A DNA stretch of 64,000 bases from Treponema sp. (GTDB lineage Bacteria > Spirochaetota > Spirochaetia > Treponematales > Treponemataceae). The first letter of the stretch is position 1, and every line of letters begins with the position of its first letter. The stretch is from NCBI GenBank assembly GCA_016286365.1, contig JAEESN010000006.1, positions 1-64,000 on the forward strand, read 5' to 3'. The notes beneath the pieces were generated by a model that was not told the origin of the DNA, made no database searches, and saw only the letters and a list, made by a program, of their open reading frames with translations. Positions 15,312-35,676 of the stretch are shown here, piece by piece. Made by a program: the position numbers and the translations under genes.

Positions 15312-15380
15312 GAGGATTTTTTCAAATGAAAAAAATCGTAGGAATTATTGCAGCAGTAGCAATGGCTGCTTCTGTATTCG
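15312..15380 (+). repeat. 69-bp porin 5' block, copy A
   Basis: A nucleotide-identical segment from GAGGATTTTTTCAA through the start codon to the end of the signal-peptide coding region. The same segment occurs at 17809-17877 and 21193-21261 in the opposite orientation. Confidence 0.9.
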
Positions 15381-16459
15381 CTGTAGACTTCTCAGCTGGA
15401 TTCCAGTTGAAGGGAAACCTCTTCTCATATTCAGATGACGGCGTAAAGGCTTTAGATCTTAACACAGGAAACTCAAAAGATGACAAACCTTTTATTTTCT
15501 CTGTAAACGGTGACAGAGCTGGTGGACAGCTTAAGTTGTTCACAAATGAAGCAGTTACAGCTAACGATGCTGTAGAATTCGATGCTCAGGCATTAAACAT
15601 CTGGTTCAAACCATTTGATGGACTCAGAATCGACCTTGGTAACTCTGATTTCGGTTTAAACTGTGAACAGATTACATGGTGGAGAGGAAAACTCTATGGT
15701 ACAGATGACTGGGGATTCAAGGCAACATACAATAAAGATGCTTTTGAAGTAGCTTTATTCTTAAGCGCTAAAAACGCTCCTTTCTTTGCTAACACAGTTA
15801 CAATCGCTGGTGACAATGCTTACAAAGCTGCTTACGATGCTGCTCTTGCTGGTATTACAGATCCAACAGAAGCACAGATTAACGCCGCTAAAGCTGCCGG
15901 TGATGCTGCTAAAGCTCTTGCATTAGCTGCTGGAGACAAAGAATCACTTATGGGTGAAATGGCTTTGAAACTCGGATACAATGCTGACTTCGGAAACATT
16001 TCTGCAATTTTTGATGCTACATCTAAATTCGATGTATTGAAATTCGGTGCTGGATACAAAGGATCATTCGGTGCTTCTTCAATCTTCGCTGATGTATTAT
16101 TCACAAAAGCTGCTGCTAATGGCCTCGGATTCGACGTAGACTACAAATACAGTGCAGATGCACTTACAATTGAACTCTATGCTGGAATCATCGCTGGTGA
16201 TATTTCTAACTTCTCTGATACAATGATCGTTCCACTCATGGCTAAAGTTAATTACTCATTGAATGGTGGTGCATTGTATGCTAAGTTTGTTTCTAACGAC
16301 GTAACACACACAGATGTTAAAGTTGACGGATACAAAGCTACAGAAATCGAAGCTGGTTATGATGGAAACTTAGGTGCTATTGCTTACAATGTTGCTCTTA
16401 ACTACAACATGGGAGACAAAGTATTCGCAGTTCCATTCTGGGTACGCCTTAGCTTCTAA
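15326..16459 (+). CDS. Porin-like outer membrane protein, paralogue 1
   Basis: A 377-residue protein with a signal peptide (cleavage near SVFA-VDF) and alternating-strand sequence to a terminal Phe (FAVPFWVRLSF), as expected for BAM-inserted beta-barrels. Residues about 35-145 and the last 180 closely match the paralogue at 20144-21247. Between them an Ala-rich insert (about 155-205) differs completely and may be a surface loop. GGAGG precedes the ATG by ten bases, and the gene ends with the family hairpin terminator. It is probably an abundant treponemal porin; substrate and ligand are unknown. The orientation is opposite to the other two copies. Confidence 0.85.
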   Translation: MKKIVGIIAAVAMAASVFAVDFSAGFQLKGNLFSYSDDGVKALDLNTGNSKDDKPFIFSVNGDRAGGQLKLFTNEAVTANDAVEFDAQALNIWFKPFDGLRIDLGNSDFGLNCEQITWWRGKLYGTDDWGFKATYNKDAFEVALFLSAKNAPFFANTVTIAGDNAYKAAYDAALAGITDPTEAQINAAKAAGDAAKALALAAGDKESLMGEMALKLGYNADFGNISAIFDATSKFDVLKFGAGYKGSFGASSIFADVLFTKAAANGLGFDVDYKYSADALTIELYAGIIAGDISNFSDTMIVPLMAKVNYSLNGGALYAKFVSNDVTHTDVKVDGYKATEIEAGYDGNLGAIAYNVALNYNMGDKVFAVPFWVRLSF

Positions 16460-16717: not shown

Positions 16718-17863
16718 TTAGAACTTAACAGAGAAGTTTACTGGTACAGAAATATTTACTTTATTAGCAATATCGAACTGTACAGCCATTTCATAAGACA
16801 TAGCTCCGAATGAAGCAGTGAAACCAGGCTTGATTGTACAAGCGAAGTTTTTAGCCATGAAGTTAGCATCTTTGAAATAGAGGTATGGAGTCATACCATT
16901 GTCTAAAGCGTATGTAACTTTAGCAATTTCCATTAATGATCCCTTACCTGTTGGTGCAGATTTGTACTGTGTATATGATTCAAATCCGAGTCCATTTGCA
17001 TTGTATTTAATGTCAAAGTCACCACCGAATGTTGTATCACAGTCTTTTACAAGGTAAACAGCACCGTCAGCGAAGATTGTTACATCACCGAATGATCCTT
17101 TGTAACCAGCTCCAATTGAGTTGATTGTGAAAGAATCTTTTGCATCATACATTGCAGAAATTGTTCCAAAGTCTGCAGCATATTCAGCATAGAAGTTTAC
17201 TTCACCAATGTAAGTCTTTGATGGTTCATTTAAAGCAATATATGCGTCTAAAGCAGCTTTAGCAGCATTTTCTGCATTTGTTTTCTGTGTCTCATCAGCA
17301 TCTTTTTCTTCAATACCAAGACCTTCATAGTATGCTTTTTTTGCATTCTCTTTAATCTTTAATCTTGAATCAACAGCATTTGTGTTAGCTTTTTTACCTT
17401 CATCACCATTTAAGAAGAAGAAACTATCTTTGTTATTTACTAAAGATAATCTTGCTGAGAATCCACCTGCAGAGAAATCAACTGCAATACCCCAGTTATC
17501 ATAATTGATAAGGCGGTTTGTCCAGTCGATAGAATCGTTGTTCATAGATTTATCGATTGTACCAAGGTTTACCTTAATTGCTTCTGCTGGTTTGAACCAG
17601 ATAGCCCATTTACCAGTTTTCATTGTGTCTCCAGATTCATCTGTCCACTTCCATGTAGCTCCTACATTGTCTGTAGAAACAGAGAAAGTAACCGGTGAAT
17701 GCCAGAACATGTTTTCGTTTTTAAGTTTTAATGCATCTGCTTCTTTCTTTTCACCGTTGTAGTTGAATAAATCTCCACTAAGACGGATAGCACCAGAAAC
17801 TTCAGCACCGAATACAGAAGCAGCCATTGCTACTGCTGCAATAATTCCTACGATTTTTTTCAT
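16718..17863 (-). CDS. Porin-like outer membrane protein, paralogue 2 (diverged)
   Basis: A 381-residue exported barrel protein ending NISVPVNFSVKF. It shares the nucleotide-identical 69-bp 5' block and the terminator stem with the other two, and the general plan (a WFKP motif near residue 92, an Ala/Lys-rich insert around 185-220, then strands such as GAGYKGSFGDVTIFADG), but it is otherwise clearly diverged. GAGG precedes the ATG. It is transcribed divergently from the AAA_14 ATPase, with an 18-bp palindrome between them. Function is probably porin-like; the cargo is unknown. Confidence 0.8.
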   Translation of the reverse strand: MKKIVGIIAAVAMAASVFGAEVSGAIRLSGDLFNYNGEKKEADALKLKNENMFWHSPVTFSVSTDNVGATWKWTDESGDTMKTGKWAIWFKPAEAIKVNLGTIDKSMNNDSIDWTNRLINYDNWGIAVDFSAGGFSARLSLVNNKDSFFFLNGDEGKKANTNAVDSRLKIKENAKKAYYEGLGIEEKDADETQKTNAENAAKAALDAYIALNEPSKTYIGEVNFYAEYAADFGTISAMYDAKDSFTINSIGAGYKGSFGDVTIFADGAVYLVKDCDTTFGGDFDIKYNANGLGFESYTQYKSAPTGKGSLMEIAKVTYALDNGMTPYLYFKDANFMAKNFACTIKPGFTASFGAMSYEMAVQFDIANKVNISVPVNFSVKF

Positions 17864-17877
17864 TTGAAAAAATCCTC
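17809..17877 (-). repeat. 69-bp porin 5' block, copy B
   Basis: The minus-strand copy of the segment that also occurs at 15312-15380 (plus) and 21193-21261 (minus), covering RBS, start and signal peptide codons. Confidence 0.9.
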
Positions 17878-17946
17878 GATTTAAAATGGAGAAAATAATG
17901 TTTGAAATTGTGAAAAAATTATGTAAAAAAATCTTGAATATGTGAA

Positions 17947-17964
17947 ATTTTATTATAATAAAAT
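17947..17964. promoter_or_regulatory. 18-bp perfect AT palindrome in a divergent promoter region
   Basis: ATTTTATTATAATAAAAT is its own reverse complement. It lies between the leftward porin gene and the rightward ATPase, immediately upstream of the ATPase -35. It could be an operator or a pair of overlapping AT-rich promoter elements. Confidence 0.5.
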
Positions 17965-17965
17965 C

Positions 17966-17994
17966 TTGATTTCGTGAAAAAACACATATATAAT
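17966..17994 (+). promoter_or_regulatory. Promoter of the AAA_14 ATPase gene
   Basis: TTGATT (17966-17971), a 17-nt spacer and TATAAT (17989-17994), with the start codon at 18018 after an AAAAGGTG ribosome site. Confidence 0.75.
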
Positions 17995-18017
17995 TAGCTT
18001 GAAAAGGTGCAAAAACT

Positions 18018-19367
18018 ATGAAAAGAAAAATATATGATGAACTTTTAAAATGGAAGAATGAGAGTGCCAGGGATTGTGCATTAATGATTGATGGTGCCAG
18101 ACGTGTTGGAAAAAGTTATATTGTCGAAGAATTTGCCAAGAAAGAATATGAATCTTATATTTTAATCGACTTTAATCTTGGAAATACTTATGTTGAATCT
18201 CTATTCGAAAATTATCTTTCGGACCTCGATACTTTTTTTATGATGCTCAGTACAATTTACAGAAAAAAACTTGTAGAACATAAATCACTGATTATTTTTG
18301 ATGAAGTGCAGAGGTTTCCAAAAGCCAGGGCTGCGATTAAATATCTTGTTAAGGATAATCGTTATGATTACATCGAAACGGGTTCTCTTGTTTCAATCAA
18401 AAAGAATGTAAAAGATATTCAGATTCCTTCGGAAGAAAGGCACATCAGGATGAATCCAATGGATTTTGAAGAATTCTGCTGGGCTATGGGGGATGAAACA
18501 ACCGTTCCTTTCATTAAAAAAATGTTTACTGAACGTAAAGAATTCGGGCCGGTCTACAGGCAGATTAATACTCTCTTCCGTCAGTACATTATTGTAGGGG
18601 GAATGCCAAAGGCAGTTTTAACTTTTGTAAATACTCGTGATTTTGAAAAGACTGATGCCATCAAAAGGGACATTCTCACTTTATACAGAAATGATATTCA
18701 AAAATATGCAGAAAAAGATGTTGAAAAAGTAACTGCTATTTTTGATGAAATTCCTTCACAGTTACAGCATCACGACAGGACATTTAAATTATCAGATCTT
18801 GATGAAGATGCGCGTTTTCGTGGATATGAAAATGCTTTTTTCTGGCTTAAGGATGCGGGTATTATAACTCCATGTTACAACACGACAGAACCATCTCTTG
18901 GATTAAAGATGAATAAAGACCGAACAACAATGAAATGTTTTATGGCTGATACAGGATTATTAATCAGTCATACCTTTGATGGAAATGGAATTGTTCAACA
19001 GGAAATCTATAAAAAACTGATGCTCGATAAGCTTTCTGTAAACTTTGGAAACATCATGGAAAACATTGTAGCCCAAATGCTCACGGCAAATAATCATTCA
19101 TTATATTTTTATACAAACAGCAGCAGGGATGATAGTGAATCAAGAATGGAAATTGATTTTCTTGTTCAGAAAACTACCGTTACAAATAAACACAATATTT
19201 ATCCCTTGGAAATAAAAACTGGTAAGAATTATACAATTACTTCGCTTAATAAGTTTAAGAAAAAATATGATGCTCAGCTTTGCGAACCTTTCGTCTTTCA
19301 CGAAGGAGAATACAAACAGGAGAATGGAATCACATTCATGCCTTTATTCATGGTGATGTGTTTGTAA
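18018..19367 (+). CDS. AAA_14/DUF4143 family ATPase
   Basis: A 449-residue protein of the widespread AAA_14-DUF4143 type. Walker A GARRVGKS is at 26-33, Walker B IIFDEVQRFPKA follows at about 95, and the Asp-rich ETGSLVS sensor segment comes next. The C-terminal half has the family MEIDFLVQK...YPLEIKTGKN pattern, reminiscent of a nuclease-like fold. The role of this family is not established. It has its own promoter and an SD (AAAAGGTG). The downstream Rpn gene is in the same orientation with a separate SD. Such genes are often duplicated in accessory regions of gut bacteria. Confidence 0.85.
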   Translation: MKRKIYDELLKWKNESARDCALMIDGARRVGKSYIVEEFAKKEYESYILIDFNLGNTYVESLFENYLSDLDTFFMMLSTIYRKKLVEHKSLIIFDEVQRFPKARAAIKYLVKDNRYDYIETGSLVSIKKNVKDIQIPSEERHIRMNPMDFEEFCWAMGDETTVPFIKKMFTERKEFGPVYRQINTLFRQYIIVGGMPKAVLTFVNTRDFEKTDAIKRDILTLYRNDIQKYAEKDVEKVTAIFDEIPSQLQHHDRTFKLSDLDEDARFRGYENAFFWLKDAGIITPCYNTTEPSLGLKMNKDRTTMKCFMADTGLLISHTFDGNGIVQQEIYKKLMLDKLSVNFGNIMENIVAQMLTANNHSLYFYTNSSRDDSESRMEIDFLVQKTTVTNKHNIYPLEIKTGKNYTITSLNKFKKKYDAQLCEPFVFHEGEYKQENGITFMPLFMVMCL

Positions 19368-20143: not shown

Positions 20144-21247
20144 TTAGAAGCTAAGGCGTACCCAGAATGGAACTGCGAAAGCTTTTGATCCAGTGTTGTA
20201 GTTAGCTGCAACATTGTATGCAATAGCACCTAAGTTTCCATCGTATCCAAGTTCGATTTCAGCAGCGAATGAATCTGCTTTGATGTTGTCATCGAGGAAC
20301 TTGAGGTATACTGTACCAGCATCCAAAGCGTAAGCTCCCTTGAAGTATACAGGGATTTTCAATGTATCACTGAAGTTAGAAATGTTATCAGCCTTTACAG
20401 CACCATAGATTTCTGCAGTGATTCCATCTGCACTGTATTTGTAGTCTACGTCGAATCCAAGAGCATTAGCAGCATCAGCCTTTGTGAACAATACATCTGT
20501 GAATACAGTTGAAGAACCGAATGATCCTTTGTATCCAGCACCGAACTTCAATGTCTTGAATGTATTTGTTGCATCAAAGATAACACTGATGTTACCGAAG
20601 TCAGCATTGTATCCGAACTTCAAAGCCATTTCAGCAAGAGCTGCTTTAGCATCATCACGAGCAGCAACAGCAGCGGCAGTAGCTGAAAGTTTTTCAGCAT
20701 CTGTTGGATCATCAGGATTTGCAGCATTGTCTTTAATCCATTTTGCATAAGCTGCATCATAAGCTGCTTTTCTTCCTGAATCGAACCAAGAAGCGTTCTT
20801 AGCAGATAAGAATAAAGCTACTTCAATAGCATCTTTGTTGTATGTTGCCTTGAATCCCCAGTCATCTGTACCAAAGAGTTTTCCTTTCCACCATGTGATC
20901 TGTTCACAGTTTAAACCGAAATCAGAGTTACCAAGGTCGATTTTAAATCCATCAAATGGTTTGAACCAGATGTTTAATGCCTGAGCATCGAATTCTACAG
21001 CATCATTAGCAGTTTTTCCTTCTGAAGTGAATAACTTAAGCTGTCCACCAGCTCTGTCTCCGCTTACAGAGAATACGAAAGGTTTATCATCTTTTGAGTT
21101 AGATGTGTTAAGATTTAATGCTCTTGCACCATCTGCTTCATCATACTGGAAAAGATTTCCCTTCAACTGGAATCCTGCAGTGAAGTCTACAGCGAATACA
21201 GAAGCAGCCATTGCTACTGCTGCAATAATTCCTACGATTTTTTTCAT
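20144..21247 (-). CDS. Porin-like outer membrane protein, paralogue 3
   Basis: A 367-residue exported beta-barrel protein nearly matching the gene at 15326-16459 over residues 1-145 and the C-terminal 170 (both end AVPFWVRLSF), but in the opposite orientation. The Ala/Asp-rich insert around 155-195 is different in sequence and length. The segments WFKPFDG, IDLGNSDFGLNCEQITWW and DDWGFKATYNKD are shared. GGAGG precedes the ATG, and a TTGACT-N17-TACTAT promoter lies about 70-100 bases upstream. It is probably a porin; cargo unknown. Recombination with paralogue 1 would invert the intervening genes. Confidence 0.86.
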   Translation of the reverse strand: MKKIVGIIAAVAMAASVFAVDFTAGFQLKGNLFQYDEADGARALNLNTSNSKDDKPFVFSVSGDRAGGQLKLFTSEGKTANDAVEFDAQALNIWFKPFDGFKIDLGNSDFGLNCEQITWWKGKLFGTDDWGFKATYNKDAIEVALFLSAKNASWFDSGRKAAYDAAYAKWIKDNAANPDDPTDAEKLSATAAAVAARDDAKAALAEMALKFGYNADFGNISVIFDATNTFKTLKFGAGYKGSFGSSTVFTDVLFTKADAANALGFDVDYKYSADGITAEIYGAVKADNISNFSDTLKIPVYFKGAYALDAGTVYLKFLDDNIKADSFAAEIELGYDGNLGAIAYNVAANYNTGSKAFAVPFWVRLSF

Positions 21248-27265: not shown

Positions 27266-30200
27266 TTATTTAAAGTAAGAAACACCGGCAGCAAAGAGGT
27301 TTTCGCAGGTTGTTTCGTTCTGGTTTGTCAAAGGATTTCCTCCGACATTCTTGAATAAATCAAAGCTTGCTCCACCATTTTCCATGCCAACGCCACGTTC
27401 AGAGTGTCCCATCTTTCCAAGAACGTGTCCGTCCGGAGAAGTGATTCCTTCGATTGCATAAGCAGAACCGTTTGGATTGTCAGGCTCTGTGATTGCAGGC
27501 TTTCCGAACTCATTTACGTACTGTGTGAATACCTGTCCGTTTTCGAAGAGTTTTTTAGCTGTTGCTTCGTCGCAGACAAATCGTCCTTCACCATGGCTTA
27601 TTGCAATAAGGTGATTTCTTTCGTCCACTACTGATGGATGCATTGCCCAAGGGCTTGTTGCAGAAACAATTCGTGTACGAACGATGCGTGAAATATGGCG
27701 TCCGATTCTGTTGTATGTAAGGGTAGGCATATCGTCTTTCATGTCTACGATTTCGCCGTACATTGCAAGACCGGTTTTTACCAAAGCCTGGAAGCCGTTA
27801 CAGATTCCAAGAACAAGTCCGTTACGCTTTTTCAAAAGGTTCATAACTTCGTCGCTGATGTTTCCAGCCTTTAATACGTTTGCAATAAATTTTGCAGAAC
27901 CATCCGGCTCATCACCGGCAGAGAATCCTCCGGAAAGGGCAAGAATCTGAGTATCTTTGAGTTCTTTTTCGAGCTCTAAAAGAGACTGAGCGAGCATATC
28001 AGGAGTTTTATTTCTTAATACGACAATCTTTGTATTTCCGCCAGCAAGATTGAATGCGCGTGCCATATCCATTTCGCAGTTTGTTCCAGGGAATACAGGA
28101 AGCAGTACTTTTGGATGAGATTTTGGCTGTACGAATGCAGGAGCCTTTCTTACGTCGCTCAAGGATTTATGAACGGAAGTTGCCCATTCAGGGAGTTCAG
28201 GCTGAACTTCGGCACCGCTTACGCGAGGGAATACTTTGCTTAATTTTTCTTCCCATGTATCAACACAATCATAAAGGCTGATTTCGATTTCTTTCTTTTC
28301 TATATTATTGAGTGATGCATTCTTAATGAGGATGCGCGGTTCGTCTAAGGTAAGACCAAGTTTTACAAGGGTACCTTTTTCGAACGATGCTTTTTCAAAA
28401 TCAGAAACATATGCAGAAGGAACTTCTACGATGATGTTTCCGTAGGTTGGAACAAAGAGGTCGTTTACAGAGATTTCTTTAGAAAGGTCTAATCTTACAC
28501 CAACAAGATTTCCCATTGCCATCTTTGTTAATGCTTCTGCAATACCACCTGCCTGAACAGGATACATAGAAGCAATCTTATTTGCTTTATTGAGTTCGTA
28601 TAAAACATCTGAGTTTTTAAGGAAGGTTTCAAAGTCAGGTGCAAGAAGCTCTGAATAAGGAACCTTTACCATATAAACATTGTTTCCCGAAGTTTTAAAT
28701 GAACCGCTTATTACGTTTTCTGCTTCGTCGTGACCGACTGCAAAACTTACAAGAGTGTGAGGAACATTGATGTGTTCAAATGTTCCCGACATTGAGTCCT
28801 TTCCACCAATAGAAGCACAACCTGATTCAATCTGTGCATCTACAGAACCGAGCAAAGCTGCAGCAGGATAACCCCAGGTTTTTTCGCTTACTGCACGACC
28901 AAAGAATTCCTGGAAGCTTAAACGGCTGTCGCGTGCCTTACCACCAATACAGGTGATTTTAGCAAGAGAACTCAAAACTGCTGTTTTTGCACCGTGCCAT
29001 GGAGACCACTGGCCAACACGCGGATCAAAGCCGTAAGACATTAAAGAAACAGTTGAAGTTTCACGAGGGCTTACGACAGGAATCTTTGCAGACATTCCGG
29101 CTTCCGGTGTATTCTGATATTTTCCTCCGTACGGGAACAAAACAGTTGAAGCACCAATAGAACCGTCAAAGCGTTCACCAAGTCCACGCTGAGAACAGCA
29201 GGCAAGGTCGTTCATATTTGTAAGCCAGGCTTCTTTTACGTTGCGTTCTACGCAGTTTTCGCATTTTACTGTCTGACTAAGTTTTTCTTTTACAGAATCA
29301 AGAGGATTTAAAAGCGGAGATTTTTCAGGTGCGGCAGGCTGTTCAATAAGGGCAGTCGCTTCGTGATGAGCACCGGCAGCATCTAAAAATTCGCGTCCGA
29401 TATTTACGATTGTTTTTCCGCGCCACTTCATTACAAGGCGGTTTGTATCTGTAACAACTGCAACAACAACTGCGTTAAGATTTTCTTTGTTTGCAGCTTC
29501 TATAAATTTATCTACATCCTTTTTGCGTACAACTACTGCCATTCTTTCCTGGCTTTCGCTGATTGCAAGCTCTGTACCGTTTAAACCTTCGTACTTCTTT
29601 GGAACCTTATCAAGGTCGATTTCAAGTCCCGGGGCAAGTTCACCGATTGCAACAGAAACACCACCGGCACCAAAGTCGTTACAGCGGCGGATCATAAGGC
29701 TTACGTCTTTATTGCGGAAAAGGCGCTGAATCTTACGCTCTTCTACGGCATTACCCTTCTGAACTTCTGCGGCTGCTGTAGTAACTGACTTTTCTGTGTG
29801 TACTTTAGAAGAACCTGTTGCACCACCAATACCATCGCGGCCAGTTCCACCACCCAAAAGAATGATGATGTCCCCTGCTTCCGGGCGTTCGCGGATTACT
29901 GTATCAACAGGAGCAGCGGCAATAACAGCACCAAGCTCCATTCTTTTTGCAAGGTAACCCGGATGGTAGATTTCTTCTACCTGACCTGTTGTAAGACCAA
30001 TCTGGTTTCCGTAGCTTGAAAATCCCTGTGCTGCTTCGCGGCAGAGTTTAATCTGAGGAAGTTTTCCTTTTAATGTATCTTTTAAAGGAACTGTAGGGTC
30101 TGCAGCACCTGTAATACGCATAGACTGATATACCCATGAGCGTCCCGAAAGCGGGTCACGGATGGCACCACCAAGACAGGTTGCGGCTCCACCAAAAGGT

Positions 30201-31255
30201 TCAATTTCTGTAGGGTGATTGTGAGTTTCGTTTTTGAACATCAAAAGCCAGCGTTCTGTTGCACGCTTATCATCCTTTTTAAGAGGACGGCCTTTTTCGT
30301 CTGCAGTGTAATGAACATCAATATAAACAGAGCAGGCATTGTTTTCTTCGGAAACTTCCATATCCTCAAGCTTTCCGTGCTTTTTAAGATACTTCATTCC
30401 GATTACAGCCATATCCATGAGGCAGACTGGTTTATCTGTACGTCCGGCATAAAGGTCGGTACGCATATTTGTATAATTTTCAAGTGATTTTTTGAAGAGC
30501 GGTGCATAAGGTCCGTCTTCGATTTTGATGTCTTTTAATTCTGTTAAGAATGTTGTATGGCGGCAGTGATCAGACCAGTAAGTGTCGAGTACACGGATTT
30601 CTGTTTCTACAGGATCACGTCCTTCGCCCTTAAAATAATCCTGAAGGAATTTGATATCCGCAAAGTCCATCGCAAGACCCATTTTGTTGCGGTATTCTTC
30701 GAGCTTTTTATCGTTGAATCCGATAAAGCCTTTTACAACAGGGATATCATCAGGATTTTCGATCTTCATCGCAAGAGTTGCAGGCTTTTTATCGTCTGTA
30801 AGGCGTGAATCAACCGGGTTTATTACATAGTTCTGAATTTTTTCTATATCTTTTTTAGAGATTTTTCCTTTTAACAAAAGAACTTTTGCACAGCGTACAA
30901 CAGGAGGCTCAGAATTAACCTTTACATTTTTAAGCCCCGCACGTAAAAGAGAAATACACTGTTCTGCACTGTCGGCTCTCTGATCATACTGTCCCGGAAG
31001 ATATTCCCAGATGATTACGGTGTCCTTGTCGGGATTTGGAAGAAAATCGAAGGTAACAAAATCGCTCTGCGGCTCGGAGAAAATACGTGTGGCCGCAATC
31101 TTTGCTACTTCGTCAGAAACATTTTCTATATCATAACGATTTAAATAACGAACGCCTGTAACTCCAGGAATTCCCAAAAATCCATTAATCTGTGATAAAA
31201 AATTGCGTGCTTCGTTTTCGAACCCTGCACGTCTTTCTACGTAGAGTCTGTACAT
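27266..31255 (-). CDS. purL: Phosphoribosylformylglycinamidine synthase, single-chain type
   Basis: A 1329-residue enzyme that converts FGAR to FGAM using glutamine and ATP in purine synthesis. The first part includes the PurS-like domain and linker. The AIRS-type domains follow (NETHNHPTEIEPFGGAATC, ...GGGTGRDGIGGATG), and the C-terminal glutaminase has the catalytic Cys in GICNGFQ and the His in GHSERG. Subunits that are separate in many Gram-positives are fused here. The ATG has no SD; TATACT lies seven bases upstream with TTGTAC 17 bases further, suggesting a leaderless message. It heads an operon with the lipoprotein and CNNM genes. Confidence 0.95.
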   Translation of the reverse strand: MYRLYVERRAGFENEARNFLSQINGFLGIPGVTGVRYLNRYDIENVSDEVAKIAATRIFSEPQSDFVTFDFLPNPDKDTVIIWEYLPGQYDQRADSAEQCISLLRAGLKNVKVNSEPPVVRCAKVLLLKGKISKKDIEKIQNYVINPVDSRLTDDKKPATLAMKIENPDDIPVVKGFIGFNDKKLEEYRNKMGLAMDFADIKFLQDYFKGEGRDPVETEIRVLDTYWSDHCRHTTFLTELKDIKIEDGPYAPLFKKSLENYTNMRTDLYAGRTDKPVCLMDMAVIGMKYLKKHGKLEDMEVSEENNACSVYIDVHYTADEKGRPLKKDDKRATERWLLMFKNETHNHPTEIEPFGGAATCLGGAIRDPLSGRSWVYQSMRITGAADPTVPLKDTLKGKLPQIKLCREAAQGFSSYGNQIGLTTGQVEEIYHPGYLAKRMELGAVIAAAPVDTVIRERPEAGDIIILLGGGTGRDGIGGATGSSKVHTEKSVTTAAAEVQKGNAVEERKIQRLFRNKDVSLMIRRCNDFGAGGVSVAIGELAPGLEIDLDKVPKKYEGLNGTELAISESQERMAVVVRKKDVDKFIEAANKENLNAVVVAVVTDTNRLVMKWRGKTIVNIGREFLDAAGAHHEATALIEQPAAPEKSPLLNPLDSVKEKLSQTVKCENCVERNVKEAWLTNMNDLACCSQRGLGERFDGSIGASTVLFPYGGKYQNTPEAGMSAKIPVVSPRETSTVSLMSYGFDPRVGQWSPWHGAKTAVLSSLAKITCIGGKARDSRLSFQEFFGRAVSEKTWGYPAAALLGSVDAQIESGCASIGGKDSMSGTFEHINVPHTLVSFAVGHDEAENVISGSFKTSGNNVYMVKVPYSELLAPDFETFLKNSDVLYELNKANKIASMYPVQAGGIAEALTKMAMGNLVGVRLDLSKEISVNDLFVPTYGNIIVEVPSAYVSDFEKASFEKGTLVKLGLTLDEPRILIKNASLNNIEKKEIEISLYDCVDTWEEKLSKVFPRVSGAEVQPELPEWATSVHKSLSDVRKAPAFVQPKSHPKVLLPVFPGTNCEMDMARAFNLAGGNTKIVVLRNKTPDMLAQSLLELEKELKDTQILALSGGFSAGDEPDGSAKFIANVLKAGNISDEVMNLLKKRNGLVLGICNGFQALVKTGLAMYGEIVDMKDDMPTLTYNRIGRHISRIVRTRIVSATSPWAMHPSVVDERNHLIAISHGEGRFVCDEATAKKLFENGQVFTQYVNEFGKPAITEPDNPNGSAYAIEGITSPDGHVLGKMGHSERGVGMENGGASFDLFKNVGGNPLTNQNETTCENLFAAGVSYFK

Positions 31256-31364: not shown

Positions 31365-31859
31365 TTACACCGTAAACTTTATCTCGCGGCCGGTTTTCTG
31401 ATACTGGTAGTAGCGGACGCCGGCGGCATTCATCAGTTTTTTGGAAACTTCTACGGATGGGGTTCCGTCGTATTTATTTTCGTCGTAAACAACTGTTTTA
31501 ATTCCGGACTGGATGATTGCTTTTGCACATTCGTTGCACGGAAAGAGTGTTACATAGATTTTACAGCCTTCGAGAGAGCCACCCCTGTAATTCAGGATTG
31601 CATTTAATTCGCTGTGGCATACGTATGCATATTTTGTATCCATTGTGTCGCCTTCGCGTGCCCACGGAAATTCATCATCGGAACAGCCGAGCGGAAATCC
31701 GTTGTATCCCATTGAACGGATTTTATTATCAGGCCCAACGATGCACGCTCCAACCTGAGAGTTTGGATCCTTTGAACGTAAGGAAGAAAGACGCGCTACT
31801 CCCATAAAATATTCATCCCAAGAAATATAATCTGCTCTTTTTGGTACACCTGTTCCCAT
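31365..31859 (-). CDS. Deoxycytidylate (dCMP) deaminase
   Basis: A 164-residue zinc deaminase of the ComEB/dCMP deaminase family, producing dUMP for thymidylate synthesis. Zinc ligands are visible in HSELNAIL and PCNEC, and RSKDPNSQVGACIV is the family N-terminal motif. GGAG precedes the ATG. It lies downstream of the CarB-DapF fusion gene with a 60-base gap. Confidence 0.94.
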   Translation of the reverse strand: MGTGVPKRADYISWDEYFMGVARLSSLRSKDPNSQVGACIVGPDNKIRSMGYNGFPLGCSDDEFPWAREGDTMDTKYAYVCHSELNAILNYRGGSLEGCKIYVTLFPCNECAKAIIQSGIKTVVYDENKYDGTPSVEVSKKLMNAAGVRYYQYQKTGREIKFTV

Positions 31860-31921: not shown

Positions 31922-34900
31922 TTACTGTACTGAGATTTCTCCCTGGAAGAGGCACGAAACTCCTCCGGTAAGACTCACTCCATCATCAGTGTATTTAACT
32001 GTAAGCACACCACCCGGAAGTTCAACCGAAATCTCCTGATTTTTTTTGCAGTAACCGTTTATTACAGAAGCAATTACTGCAGCTACAGCTCCCGACGGAG
32101 ATGACTGAACTTCGCCTGTTCCCATCTGCCAGCTTCGCATCTTTATTTTATTCGGAGATTCAACCTTTACAAACTGGATATCGGCTCCATCGGGGAAGGC
32201 TTCGTTTCGTTCGAACACAGGACCATTCTTTTCTACATCGACCATATCAACATAATTAGAAAAAAGTACACAATTATCTCTTTCGAATAAAACTTTAACG
32301 GCGTTATAATTTAATCCTTCTGCGCAGACTGTGATATTCTGTGGGGCAGATTCCGGAAGATGCATAAAAAGTTCTACGCTCGAAACTTTATTGTTGTTTT
32401 TATAAAGAGTCACATTCTGAACTCCGGCCTTTGTTTCTATAGAAACCGTTCTTGTGTTCTGCGAAGAAAGAAGATTATTATCGTTTACATATTTTGCTAC
32501 GGCACGGATTTCGTTTCCATACTGAGTCTGAAGTTCACCTTTTGATGAATAAACTTCCATAGAAAAATCAGCGGTTTTAGCTTTTTTTACGATGATTAAT
32601 TTTTCGGCTCCGATCGAAGTCTTTCTGTTACAAAGCTTAACTGCAAACGCACAGGGGTTATAAATATTATAATCATCCGCATTAAGAATGATATAATCGT
32701 CGCCTGTACAATCGTATTTTTCGAAGTGCATTTTCTGCTCGGAGTCGAACAGATTTCTGATGTTTATAAGCTGTGTATTTTCAGGCGAAAAACCAAGAAG
32801 CAGACAGTCGGCGACTGAATCAGCAATGTCGAAAGATGTGATGCACGGAATCTTTTTATCTATTGAATAAGATTTAAATCCGGTTGCACTCGAAGTGATT
32901 ATATAATCAAGCTTTTCTTCAAAATTTCCAGATGTGAATGTTCCCGCTTTAATTCCGAATTCATTTAAGACAGGAATGTTTTCTTCGGACGCATAAAGAT
33001 TAAATCCAAGGCTTTCGAATTTTTTTGCAACAGGTGGAAGCTTTTGAATATCGCTCTTCTGGATATTAAAAAGGATATTTCCCTTAGAGCTCATCGTATT
33101 GCCGGAAGCTATAAGACCTTTATAAATTGCTTCTTTTTTGATAGAAGAAAGTCCAAGCACCTGCCCGTGATTCTGCCTTTTATAATCATAAACCGGATAC
33201 TTAACTGCAAAATATGGCGGAACTGAATGAATCTGAGTTTTAATGCCAACTTCTTCGAGGCTCTGACCAAGCATAACTCTTGAAGCAAGAGAAACAACAG
33301 GAAGCCCCGTAATTTTAGAAATGAACGGAATATTTGCAGAAACAACGGCGCTCACTTCTTTTACGTAAAGATCGTTATTGTAATTTATAAATCTGATTGT
33401 CAAAAGACCGCGTACTTCGAGCTTTAATGCAATCTCTGATGATTTTTTTATCATCATCTCGCGGAGCACGTCGCTCAAATTCATTACAGGATAAACTTCT
33501 ACAACATCTTTTTCTTCGGAAACAAAGCGTTCCATTATGCCCGGAATGAATGTGTTTCTTGTGTCGCTTATGAGGTTTACTTCGAATTCCGGTCCGTCCA
33601 TAAAGCTCTGTGTTGTAACAAGGTTTTTGGAAATAAAGGTTGCTTCTGCGTTTGCACCAAGAATCTTTACATCCTGCTGTTCCAGGAATTTTGTAAGCTT
33701 TATAGAATCTTCTCCGCCAAAAGCTGTAACTACGCCTACCGGCTTTTCCATGTAAATAACATTCATCACGTCTTCGGCAGTTACCGGTTCTATGTAAAGA
33801 CGGTCTGCATAGCCGAAGTCGGAAGCAACGTCTATAGGGCTGTTGTTCATTATTACAACTTCGTAACCCATCTGGCGGTAAGTCTTGGCGCAAAGGATAG
33901 AAGCATAATCAGTTTCGCAAGATTGTCCGTAAAGGTTACTGCCCGAATCTATAATCAGGATTGTTCCCTTCTGAGATCTTTGTGCAATGGAAGAAAGATA
34001 AGGTTCTGCTTCGTCCATTGTGTCGTATGCGCAGTAAAAATATGGATGATAATTTTCGAAATGAGGCTCTGAATAAGAAACCCTTTTATAAACTGAATTA
34101 ACGTGTGCAAGTTTTCTGCTCTTTGTTAAAGAAAGCGCATCCTGGCTCTGTGCCTTTACGCCGTTTGCCCCGATTATCGAAAGGCTTGTGATTGCTTGAA
34201 TAAGATCATCACTATAACCGAATTTCTTTAAATCTACATAAAGGTCTATAGAAAGTGTACCTATTCCTTTCTTTACATCTTCGAGCTTCTTTTCTAAATC
34301 TGCAATATTCTGAATGTGATCTAAGAACCACCAGTCTACCTTTGTTTCGCGGTAGATTTCTTCGTGCGACATGATGTTTCTTTTAATTGCTTCGAAGATT
34401 GCATAAACCTTGAGTGCTTTTTCTTCCTGAACGTGCTTACGGATATCGTCGTTTGTTTCGCCTTCGTAATCCTTGAGTCTTAAACCTAAAGTGCCATCGG
34501 TATTTGTTCTTAAAGCCTTCATCAAAGCTTCTTCGAAGGTTCGTCCGAAAGCCATTGAAGGATTTTTTATATTGCATGAAACACAGATGCTGTCCGGCTT
34601 TGGAGAAAAACAGGTTCTGTCGTCGTTTACTTTTGAAACTTCCGGAAGTGAATATCCTATGGCTAAAAGACCTGCAACGCGTGGAATCGGGTAACCTGTT
34701 GCTTTTGTAACAAAAGGAGTGAACTCACAGGCGCGGGGATTTACTTCTATTACAACGTATTCTTTTGAATTAGGTTTTAATCCGAATTTGATGTTACATT
34801 CACCGGTGATTCCAAATGCATTTGTAATCCTTATGGCCGCACTCTGTAAAATCTGCATTTCATCTTCGCTTAAAGAAACTGCAGGGCTTACGCTTATAAA

Positions 34901-35641
34901 CCTTCCGTCCGAAGTGCCCACAGGATCAAAATTTTCTACAGAACCGGCTGTTATGCAGTGACCGTATTCATCGCGCATTAAGATAAAATCAATTTCTTTC
35001 CAGCCCGCAATACATTTTTCTACGAGCACCTGGTGAAGAGGTGATTTTTTTAAAAGCTGAGTTACAGTTTCTATCATCTCTTCCTGATTATTTACAATGC
35101 GACCGGGAGCACGTCCGAATAAAACTGCAGGGCGCACAGTTACAGGATAACCGATTGAACTTTCCGCAAATAAAACTGCATCTTTAAGAGACGCTGCCAT
35201 TTTGGACGGAATGCACGGTTCATTCATCTTGAGCATTACATCTTTGAATGCCTGGAATTCCTGTGAATTATTTATAGACTGAGTAGTTACGCCAAGAAGA
35301 GTAACATTATTATTCGAAAGAAATGTAGAAACAGAAAGCTGGAGCGCAAGTGTTAATCCGCTCTGACCTGCCAAAACCGGAAAGAGGGAATCGACCTTTT
35401 CTTTTATTATGATTCTTTTTACGGTTTCTAAAGTTAAAGGTTCAATATAAATCTGAGCAACCAGACACTTATCTGTAATTATTGAATTTGGATTTGGGGA
35501 AATTAAAACAACTTCAAGTCCTTTTTCGTGAAAAACCCTGCAAGCCTGAGCAACGGCAAAATCATTTTCAGAGATATGATTTTCGTTTAAGGATGAGGCT
35601 CCGAACACTAAGACTTTTTTTAAAGAAACATTCTGAGGCAT
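31922..35641 (-). CDS. Degenerate CarB-like protein fused to an inactive DapF-like domain
   Basis: A 1239-residue fusion. Residues 1-330 follow the first half of carbamoyl-phosphate synthase large subunit (ENFDPVG and VVIEVNPRA retained), but the nucleotide loop is changed (RPAVLFGRAPG) and SRSS after NPR is CEFT. Residues 340-545 resemble the oligomerisation domain (FENYHPYFYCAYD). In the second half (556-800) the core of the second ATP-grasp domain is missing. An MGS-like domain follows (850-945). Residues 970-1239 are DapF-like (TGEVQSSPSGAVAAV, LPGGVLTVKY, FQGEI), but the two catalytic Cys are Tyr1041 and Ser1181. Both halves look inactive. It has its own promoter with leaderless spacing. 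It may be a binding or regulatory pseudoenzyme. Confidence 0.85.
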   Translation of the reverse strand: MPQNVSLKKVLVFGASSLNENHISENDFAVAQACRVFHEKGLEVVLISPNPNSIITDKCLVAQIYIEPLTLETVKRIIIKEKVDSLFPVLAGQSGLTLALQLSVSTFLSNNNVTLLGVTTQSINNSQEFQAFKDVMLKMNEPCIPSKMAASLKDAVLFAESSIGYPVTVRPAVLFGRAPGRIVNNQEEMIETVTQLLKKSPLHQVLVEKCIAGWKEIDFILMRDEYGHCITAGSVENFDPVGTSDGRFISVSPAVSLSEDEMQILQSAAIRITNAFGITGECNIKFGLKPNSKEYVVIEVNPRACEFTPFVTKATGYPIPRVAGLLAIGYSLPEVSKVNDDRTCFSPKPDSICVSCNIKNPSMAFGRTFEEALMKALRTNTDGTLGLRLKDYEGETNDDIRKHVQEEKALKVYAIFEAIKRNIMSHEEIYRETKVDWWFLDHIQNIADLEKKLEDVKKGIGTLSIDLYVDLKKFGYSDDLIQAITSLSIIGANGVKAQSQDALSLTKSRKLAHVNSVYKRVSYSEPHFENYHPYFYCAYDTMDEAEPYLSSIAQRSQKGTILIIDSGSNLYGQSCETDYASILCAKTYRQMGYEVVIMNNSPIDVASDFGYADRLYIEPVTAEDVMNVIYMEKPVGVVTAFGGEDSIKLTKFLEQQDVKILGANAEATFISKNLVTTQSFMDGPEFEVNLISDTRNTFIPGIMERFVSEEKDVVEVYPVMNLSDVLREMMIKKSSEIALKLEVRGLLTIRFINYNNDLYVKEVSAVVSANIPFISKITGLPVVSLASRVMLGQSLEEVGIKTQIHSVPPYFAVKYPVYDYKRQNHGQVLGLSSIKKEAIYKGLIASGNTMSSKGNILFNIQKSDIQKLPPVAKKFESLGFNLYASEENIPVLNEFGIKAGTFTSGNFEEKLDYIITSSATGFKSYSIDKKIPCITSFDIADSVADCLLLGFSPENTQLINIRNLFDSEQKMHFEKYDCTGDDYIILNADDYNIYNPCAFAVKLCNRKTSIGAEKLIIVKKAKTADFSMEVYSSKGELQTQYGNEIRAVAKYVNDNNLLSSQNTRTVSIETKAGVQNVTLYKNNNKVSSVELFMHLPESAPQNITVCAEGLNYNAVKVLFERDNCVLFSNYVDMVDVEKNGPVFERNEAFPDGADIQFVKVESPNKIKMRSWQMGTGEVQSSPSGAVAAVIASVINGYCKKNQEISVELPGGVLTVKYTDDGVSLTGGVSCLFQGEISVQ

Positions 35642-35647
35642 ATTTTC

Positions 35648-35676
35648 TTTATAAAACGATTAGACAATAAAGTCAA
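35648..35676 (-). promoter_or_regulatory. Promoter of the CarB-DapF fusion gene, leaderless spacing
   Basis: TTGACT (35671-35676), 17 nt, TATAAA (35648-35653) on the minus strand, and six bases to the ATG. Confidence 0.7.

Follow-up and report, generated by a model that had tools for sequence, protein, structure and literature searches.

Inactive paralogues and the parent enzymes

Enzyme paralogues that have lost catalysis can be kept beside their active homologues and put to another use. The prozyme, a dead paralogue, activates AdoMetDC (PMC5201418), and DHS is likewise activated by its inactive paralogue (PMC3663545). Folds may also be used without their catalytic residues. In PddB, a DapF-like racemase, mutation of either cysteine almost completely abolishes activity (PMC8225329), but a double cysteine mutant of E. 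coli DapF retains the ability to bind RppH and stimulate it (PMC4227774). In E. coli carbamoyl-phosphate synthase, CarA contacts both the carboxyphosphate domain and the D3 domain of CarB, D3 joins dimers into tetramers, and oligomerization alone leaves regulation of the enzyme unchanged (PMC6245113). A search of the open-access literature found no paper on a fusion of CarB with DapF, and the family considered here is apparently undescribed.

A CarB-DapF frame in a rumen Treponema

The window, by which we mean the whole stretch of 64,000 nucleotides that was analysed, belongs to a rumen Treponema genome of 2.68 Mb. A complete ATG-to-stop frame of 1239 residues occupies positions 31922..35641 of its reverse strand, on which the parts of the gene, its promoter, and its two neighboring genes described below also lie. 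Pfam finds CPSase_L_D1, D2, and D3 as well as DAP_epimerase in it, and NCBIfam scores it at 649 bits for CarB and 146 bits for DapF, the latter above the cut-off, in agreement with an earlier note that a single frame joins CarB-like and DapF-like parts. The D1-D2-D3-D1-D2-MGS order of CarB is present, with homology in both sequence and fold, although the second D2 is shortened. An orthologue (L083:1089-4808) that is 82% identical and aligns without a gap rules out an assembly error or a chance frame. Viral origin was also rejected, as 114 pattern-matching viral stretches contained no gene for a relative.

Loss of the catalytic sites

Alignment places the carboxyphosphate half, consisting of the preATP-grasp and first ATP-grasp domains, at residues 8-345 (34607..35620). 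Here, Phe129, Arg177, Ser244, and Lys285 replace R, G, H, and Q, with Arg177 lying in a nucleotide loop that has changed from GGTGGGI to GRAPGRI. The second preATP-grasp domain (residues 557-670; 33632..33973, from Pfam and alignment) is followed, between residues 672 and 673 (33625..33626), by a site at which the second ATP-grasp lacks ∼74 residues, Arg715 among them, corresponding roughly to E. coli CarB 676-749. The same gap occurs in all four homologues of this dead type. In E. coli numbering, the changes in the window protein are R129F, H243S, and Q285K in the first half, H788E, Q829R, N843S, R845V, and R848A in the second ATP-grasp remnant (residues 673-850; 33092..33625), and K993S at the UMP site of the MGS-like domain (residues 851-962; 32756..33091). 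When the CarB sites were tested at R129, H243, Q285, E299, N301, and R303 of the first ATP-grasp and at R715, H788, Q829, E841, N843, and R845 of the second, only E299, N301, R303, and E841 remained. Nine residues (R129, H243, Q285, R715, H788, Q829, N843, R845, and R848) are absent from all four dead homologues, as is Lys993, and N301 is the only tested CarB residue that all four retain. The altered loop and the missing ATP-grasp core had already been noticed; the alignments bear out both and extend the list of losses considerably. Relative to E. coli CarB (PDB 1a9x; NF003671), the window protein therefore agrees in domain order, in overall fold, and in having D3 and an MGS domain, but both ATP-grasp sites are dead. 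On the evidence of these residues, it would not be expected to synthesize carbamoyl phosphate with CarA.

The DapF-like domain fares no better. Spanning residues 965-1239 (31925..32749), it is full-length, with Tyr1041 and Ser1181, as the earlier note had read them, in the places of Cys73 and Cys217 (numbering of the H. influenzae enzyme). Both cysteines are absent from all four dead homologues, and in the window protein the pocket residues N11, N64, N157, H159, N190, E208, R209, and G218 are lost as well. The domain thus retains the DapF fold (TIGR00652; PDB 2otn), but other residues stand in place of the two catalytic cysteines and across most of the ligand pocket, and it lacks the features of both a two-cysteine epimerase and a DAP-binding protein.

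Intact carAB and dapF genes elsewhere in the genome

The earlier note proposed a search for true carAB and dapF genes, and all are present. A standalone dapF is intact with both cysteines, carA lies on contig 31 together with a carB split into halves of 536 and 527 residues, and contig 6 carries a second, full-length carB. The cell therefore needs the pseudoenzyme for neither reaction, and the possibility that it is the sole source of CarB or DapF is ruled out. The halves of the split carB (L009:6549-8159 and 16763-18346) are both complete and lie 8.6 kb apart, separated by about eight genes that include an ABC transporter, cysK, and an Rrf2-type regulator; carB is likewise split in genomes G003, G015, G080, G095, G097, and G142. 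The genome also encodes dapB, lysA, ddh, and dapL, and the presence of dapL, ddh, and lysA beside a two-cysteine dapF counters the view that DapF activity is unexpected in treponemes.

The fusion family and its history

A search for the CarB-DapF joint across genomes, another check that had been proposed, shows fusions to be widespread, both in the genus and in Clostridia. Roughly 80 Treponema genomes encode one, with complete frames mostly of 1310-1500 residues, and a scan of GTDB genomes found others across Clostridia, including Ruminococcus albus. The Clostridial (R. albus L139) and Treponema (L032, L036) fusions have the same architecture and joint as the window protein, which, with both parts in one frame and common descent, is a member of this family. 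They differ from it in what they have kept. The aligned Treponema fusions retain every CarB ATP-grasp residue within the span covered, and every one examined in the genus has Ala for Cys73 and keeps Cys217 where covered; standalone DapFs retain both cysteines. Most fusions outside Treponema have both, several lack the first, and two or three lack the second.

The first DapF cysteine is Ser, Ala, or Gly in L110, L112, L115, L118, L121, L143, L144, L149, L159, L160, L172, and L185, and its loss outside Treponema is apparently repeated; two of the non-Treponema fusions, L149 and L160, have lost both cysteines. Clostridial fusions with both include L111, L116, L120, L139, L141, L145, and L154, and for some of these genomes the search turned up no second DapF. 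The fusion was the sole DapF identified in R. albus and other Ruminococcus genomes, and Sporotomaculum has a fusion devoid of both cysteines together with a separate dapF.

Trees built from the CarB part and from the DapF part unite the dead clade with the Treponema fusions, although its long branches leave the exact branching point uncertain. Treponema CarB that is unfused or split is nested among the fusions, as though it had shed a DapF part. The relatives show a history in three steps: full Clostridial fusions, mostly with both cysteines; Treponema fusions with all tested CarB residues in place and with Cys73 changed to Ala; and the clade of the window protein, which lost the rest.

Treponema genomes with a fusion (L032:9550-13785, L036:7727-11944, and others, single-contig ones included) have dapB, dapL, and lysA, with neither ddh nor a two-cysteine DapF found, and in G001, G014, G018, G020, and T. 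ruminis RU1 (L182) no DapF at all was found. Fusion-type genomes and those with a standalone dapF also differ in the type of lysA (∼285 versus 370 bits) and of dCMP deaminase, so that two separate lineages seem to exist within the genus.

Orthologues and purifying selection

Among the 200 genomes of the genus searched, the pseudoenzyme type is present in four: the window genome, G168, G112, and G105. At least three of these, like most of the genomes compared, are metagenome-assembled, and the assemblies of G168, G112, and G105 are fragmented. The copy in G168 (yak rumen MAG RGIG10130, L083/L108) also has 1239 residues and is the gap-free orthologue described above. Those of G112 and G105 (horse feces MAG), with 1210 and 1257 residues, are only ∼36% identical and carry the ATP-grasp deletion of the window protein.

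The dN/dS between the window and G168 copies is 0.098 over 1239 gap-free codons, a value that is approximate because dS is near saturation. Housekeeping genes compared between these two genomes are constrained to a similar degree: dapF gives 0.103, nadE 0.107, carA 0.063, and dCMP deaminase 0.095. The pseudoenzymes of G112 and G105 give 0.17. Within the pseudoenzyme, the DapF part has the lowest value, 0.075. A neutral frame would not survive intact over a distance at which dS nears saturation. Restriction to four genomes is what a pseudogene in early decay might show, but an open frame, a gap-free alignment at such dS, a dN/dS of 0.10, and a conserved promoter make that reading extremely improbable, and we reject it on dN/dS. 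The view that the frame is undamaged and under selection is upheld, all the more because two divergent copies occupy the same neighborhood. The earlier note had also held that intact homologues would point to a normal enzyme and damaged frames in relatives to decay. In part this was so, as relatives have a normal CarB and the fusion is a real enzyme family; the window member, however, fits neither a normal enzyme nor a gene in decay.

Lost catalytic sites, purifying selection, and active paralogues in the same cell are among the marks of a regulatory dead-paralogue subunit, and all three are found here. With its active sites destroyed and its intact frame changing slowly, the protein has been kept for a non-catalytic job; it is almost certainly a conserved, non-catalytic paralogue of the CarB-DapF fusion enzyme.

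A shift of constraint within a predicted fold

AlphaFold2 models, made as the structure prediction that the earlier note had advised, are good for both parts (pLDDT 83 for CarB and 93.8 for DapF), matching CarB 1a9x with a TM score of 0.89 and, as best PDB match, DapF 2otn with 0.90. Both folds are thus kept in the models. The Pfam-defined CPSase_L_D3 oligomerization domain (residues 396-512; 34106..34456) is among the most confident regions, with pLDDT >90 over most of its length.

D3 is also where conservation within the dead clade is at its maximum. Between the two dead sub-clades, identity is 50-52% in D3, 42-43% in the first ATP-grasp, 34% in DapF, and 21-28% in MGS, the least conserved domain, and a sliding window peaks at ∼421-500. 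In the active fusions, no CarB region is less conserved than D3 (52%), against ∼85% for the other main CarB domains. Invariant sites follow the same pattern: in the dead clade they make up 44% of positions inside D3 and 24% outside it (p 2e-5), and in the active fusions 14% and 61%, respectively (p 4e-24). From these identities and invariant sites, it follows that constraint has moved from catalysis to the interaction domain, in a pseudoenzyme that, by its models, stays folded. Conservation of D3 means that the domain matters and does not by itself show a binding partner.

One candidate partner is CarA alone, for which the pseudoenzyme could act as a decoy or, CarA being the glutaminase subunit, as an alternative carrier, and so hold back or redirect the assembly of CarAB. 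The two surfaces that CarA touches in E. coli are the carboxyphosphate domain and D3 (PMC6245113); D3 is better kept than any other stretch of CarB and is followed by parts of the carboxyphosphate half, but that half as a whole (0.32-0.43) is less conserved than D3 (0.50-0.52), and we consider this role unlikely.

The metabolite-binding regulator suggested in the earlier note, a sensor of ornithine, UMP, or a DAP-like amino acid that binds without catalysis, fits poorly because both pockets are eroded. The DapF pocket is lost in the window protein, Lys993 of the UMP site is gone from all four homologues, and MGS has diverged most. What keeps the idea alive, if quite improbable, is that the modeled fold is retained and that E783, D791, and T1042 (E. 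coli numbering) on the ornithine side remain in the window protein.

A new catalytic activity in an altered site is more doubtful still. DapF-fold relatives with a single cysteine or none, such as PhzF and the hydroxyproline dehydratases, perform other chemistry; folds of this type are among the structure matches of the DapF-like domain, and purifying selection would suit an enzyme. However, no tested catalytic residue of the second ATP-grasp or the DapF site survives in all four homologues and only Asn301 does in the first ATP-grasp, and the dead clade has no invariant cluster specific to it, only 34 scattered positions. We regard a new activity as very unlikely.

Promoter and neighboring genes

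The promoter that had been noted from the sequence is real by the measure of conservation: TTGACT-17-TATAAA (35648..35676) ends 6 nucleotides before the ATG, and the orthologue in L083 has TTGAGT-17-TATAAT. A consensus scan missed the window promoter because it requires a final T in the -10 box. In both genomes, the -10 box lies just 6 nucleotides from the ATG (35641-35653 in the window), which suggests a leaderless transcript.

In all four genomes, which represent four species, the pseudoenzyme gene is followed on its strand by one for a dCMP deaminase (31365..31859 in the window) of 164 residues. The third of the run is a PurL-like phosphoribosylformylglycinamidine synthase (27266..31255), also present in G112, the contigs of G168 and G105 ending before that position. 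In nine other genomes, the dCMP deaminase locus has different neighbors and no trace of a pseudoenzyme, so an ancestral remnant at this locus in other species was set aside. Elsewhere in the window, three related frames (15326-16459, 16718-17863, and 20144-21247), two of them very similar, have the signal-peptide start MKKIVGIIAAVAMAASVF in common and are probably outer-membrane proteins.

Conserved adjacency raises the prospect of a scaffold or regulator that serves its operon partners, dCMP deaminase and PurL, or another protein bound through the DapF module as RppH is by E. coli DapF. The DapF domain folds well in the models and has the lowest dN/dS, and catalytically dead DapF can indeed stimulate RppH (PMC4227774); still, co-expression is not interaction, and the DapF part, at 34% identity between sub-clades, is less conserved than D3. 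Such a role strikes us as unlikely, although together with binding of CarA alone it makes up the main competition for the explanation favored below.

A possible subunit of carbamoyl-phosphate synthase

Partnership with the working CarAB is the explanation that we favor, and we hold it as plausible while giving it somewhat less than even chances. The pseudoenzyme would be a structural or regulatory subunit that joins the working synthase (CarA with the CarB, unfused or split, of other loci) through D3, tuning its assembly or activity, and the folded, empty DapF module would serve as an interaction surface rather than as a racemase. Given the CarA and tetramer contacts of D3 in E. coli, a dead CarB that retains this domain is well-placed to enter CarAB assemblies. 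Counting against the partnership are the unchanged regulation of the E. coli enzyme upon oligomerization (PMC6245113) and the location of the gene beside dCMP deaminase and purL, not carAB; near-saturated dS and the small number of carriers, four genomes, weigh against it as well. For the AdoMetDC prozyme and the DHS paralogue, complex formation and activation are proven, whereas for the window protein they are proposed from sequence, and E. coli DapF, unlike the window protein, is also an active epimerase. A more specific and more tentative version is that a dead synthase large subunit with a dead epimerase module might be a dedicated regulatory subunit of CarAB (or CarA), one whose expression alongside deoxypyrimidine and purine genes would tie the supply of carbamoyl phosphate to the demand for nucleotides.

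The family sharpens the question of the route from LL-DAP to lysine, as the tested Treponema genomes have the fusion as their only DapF, yet its first catalytic cysteine is missing. It also provides a clear natural series from bifunctional enzyme through half-dead fusion to a conserved protein that is fully dead, for which active homologues within the genus can serve as controls. If the favored explanation is true, a dead CarB maintained by selection would represent a new form of control at the branch point between arginine and pyrimidine synthesis.
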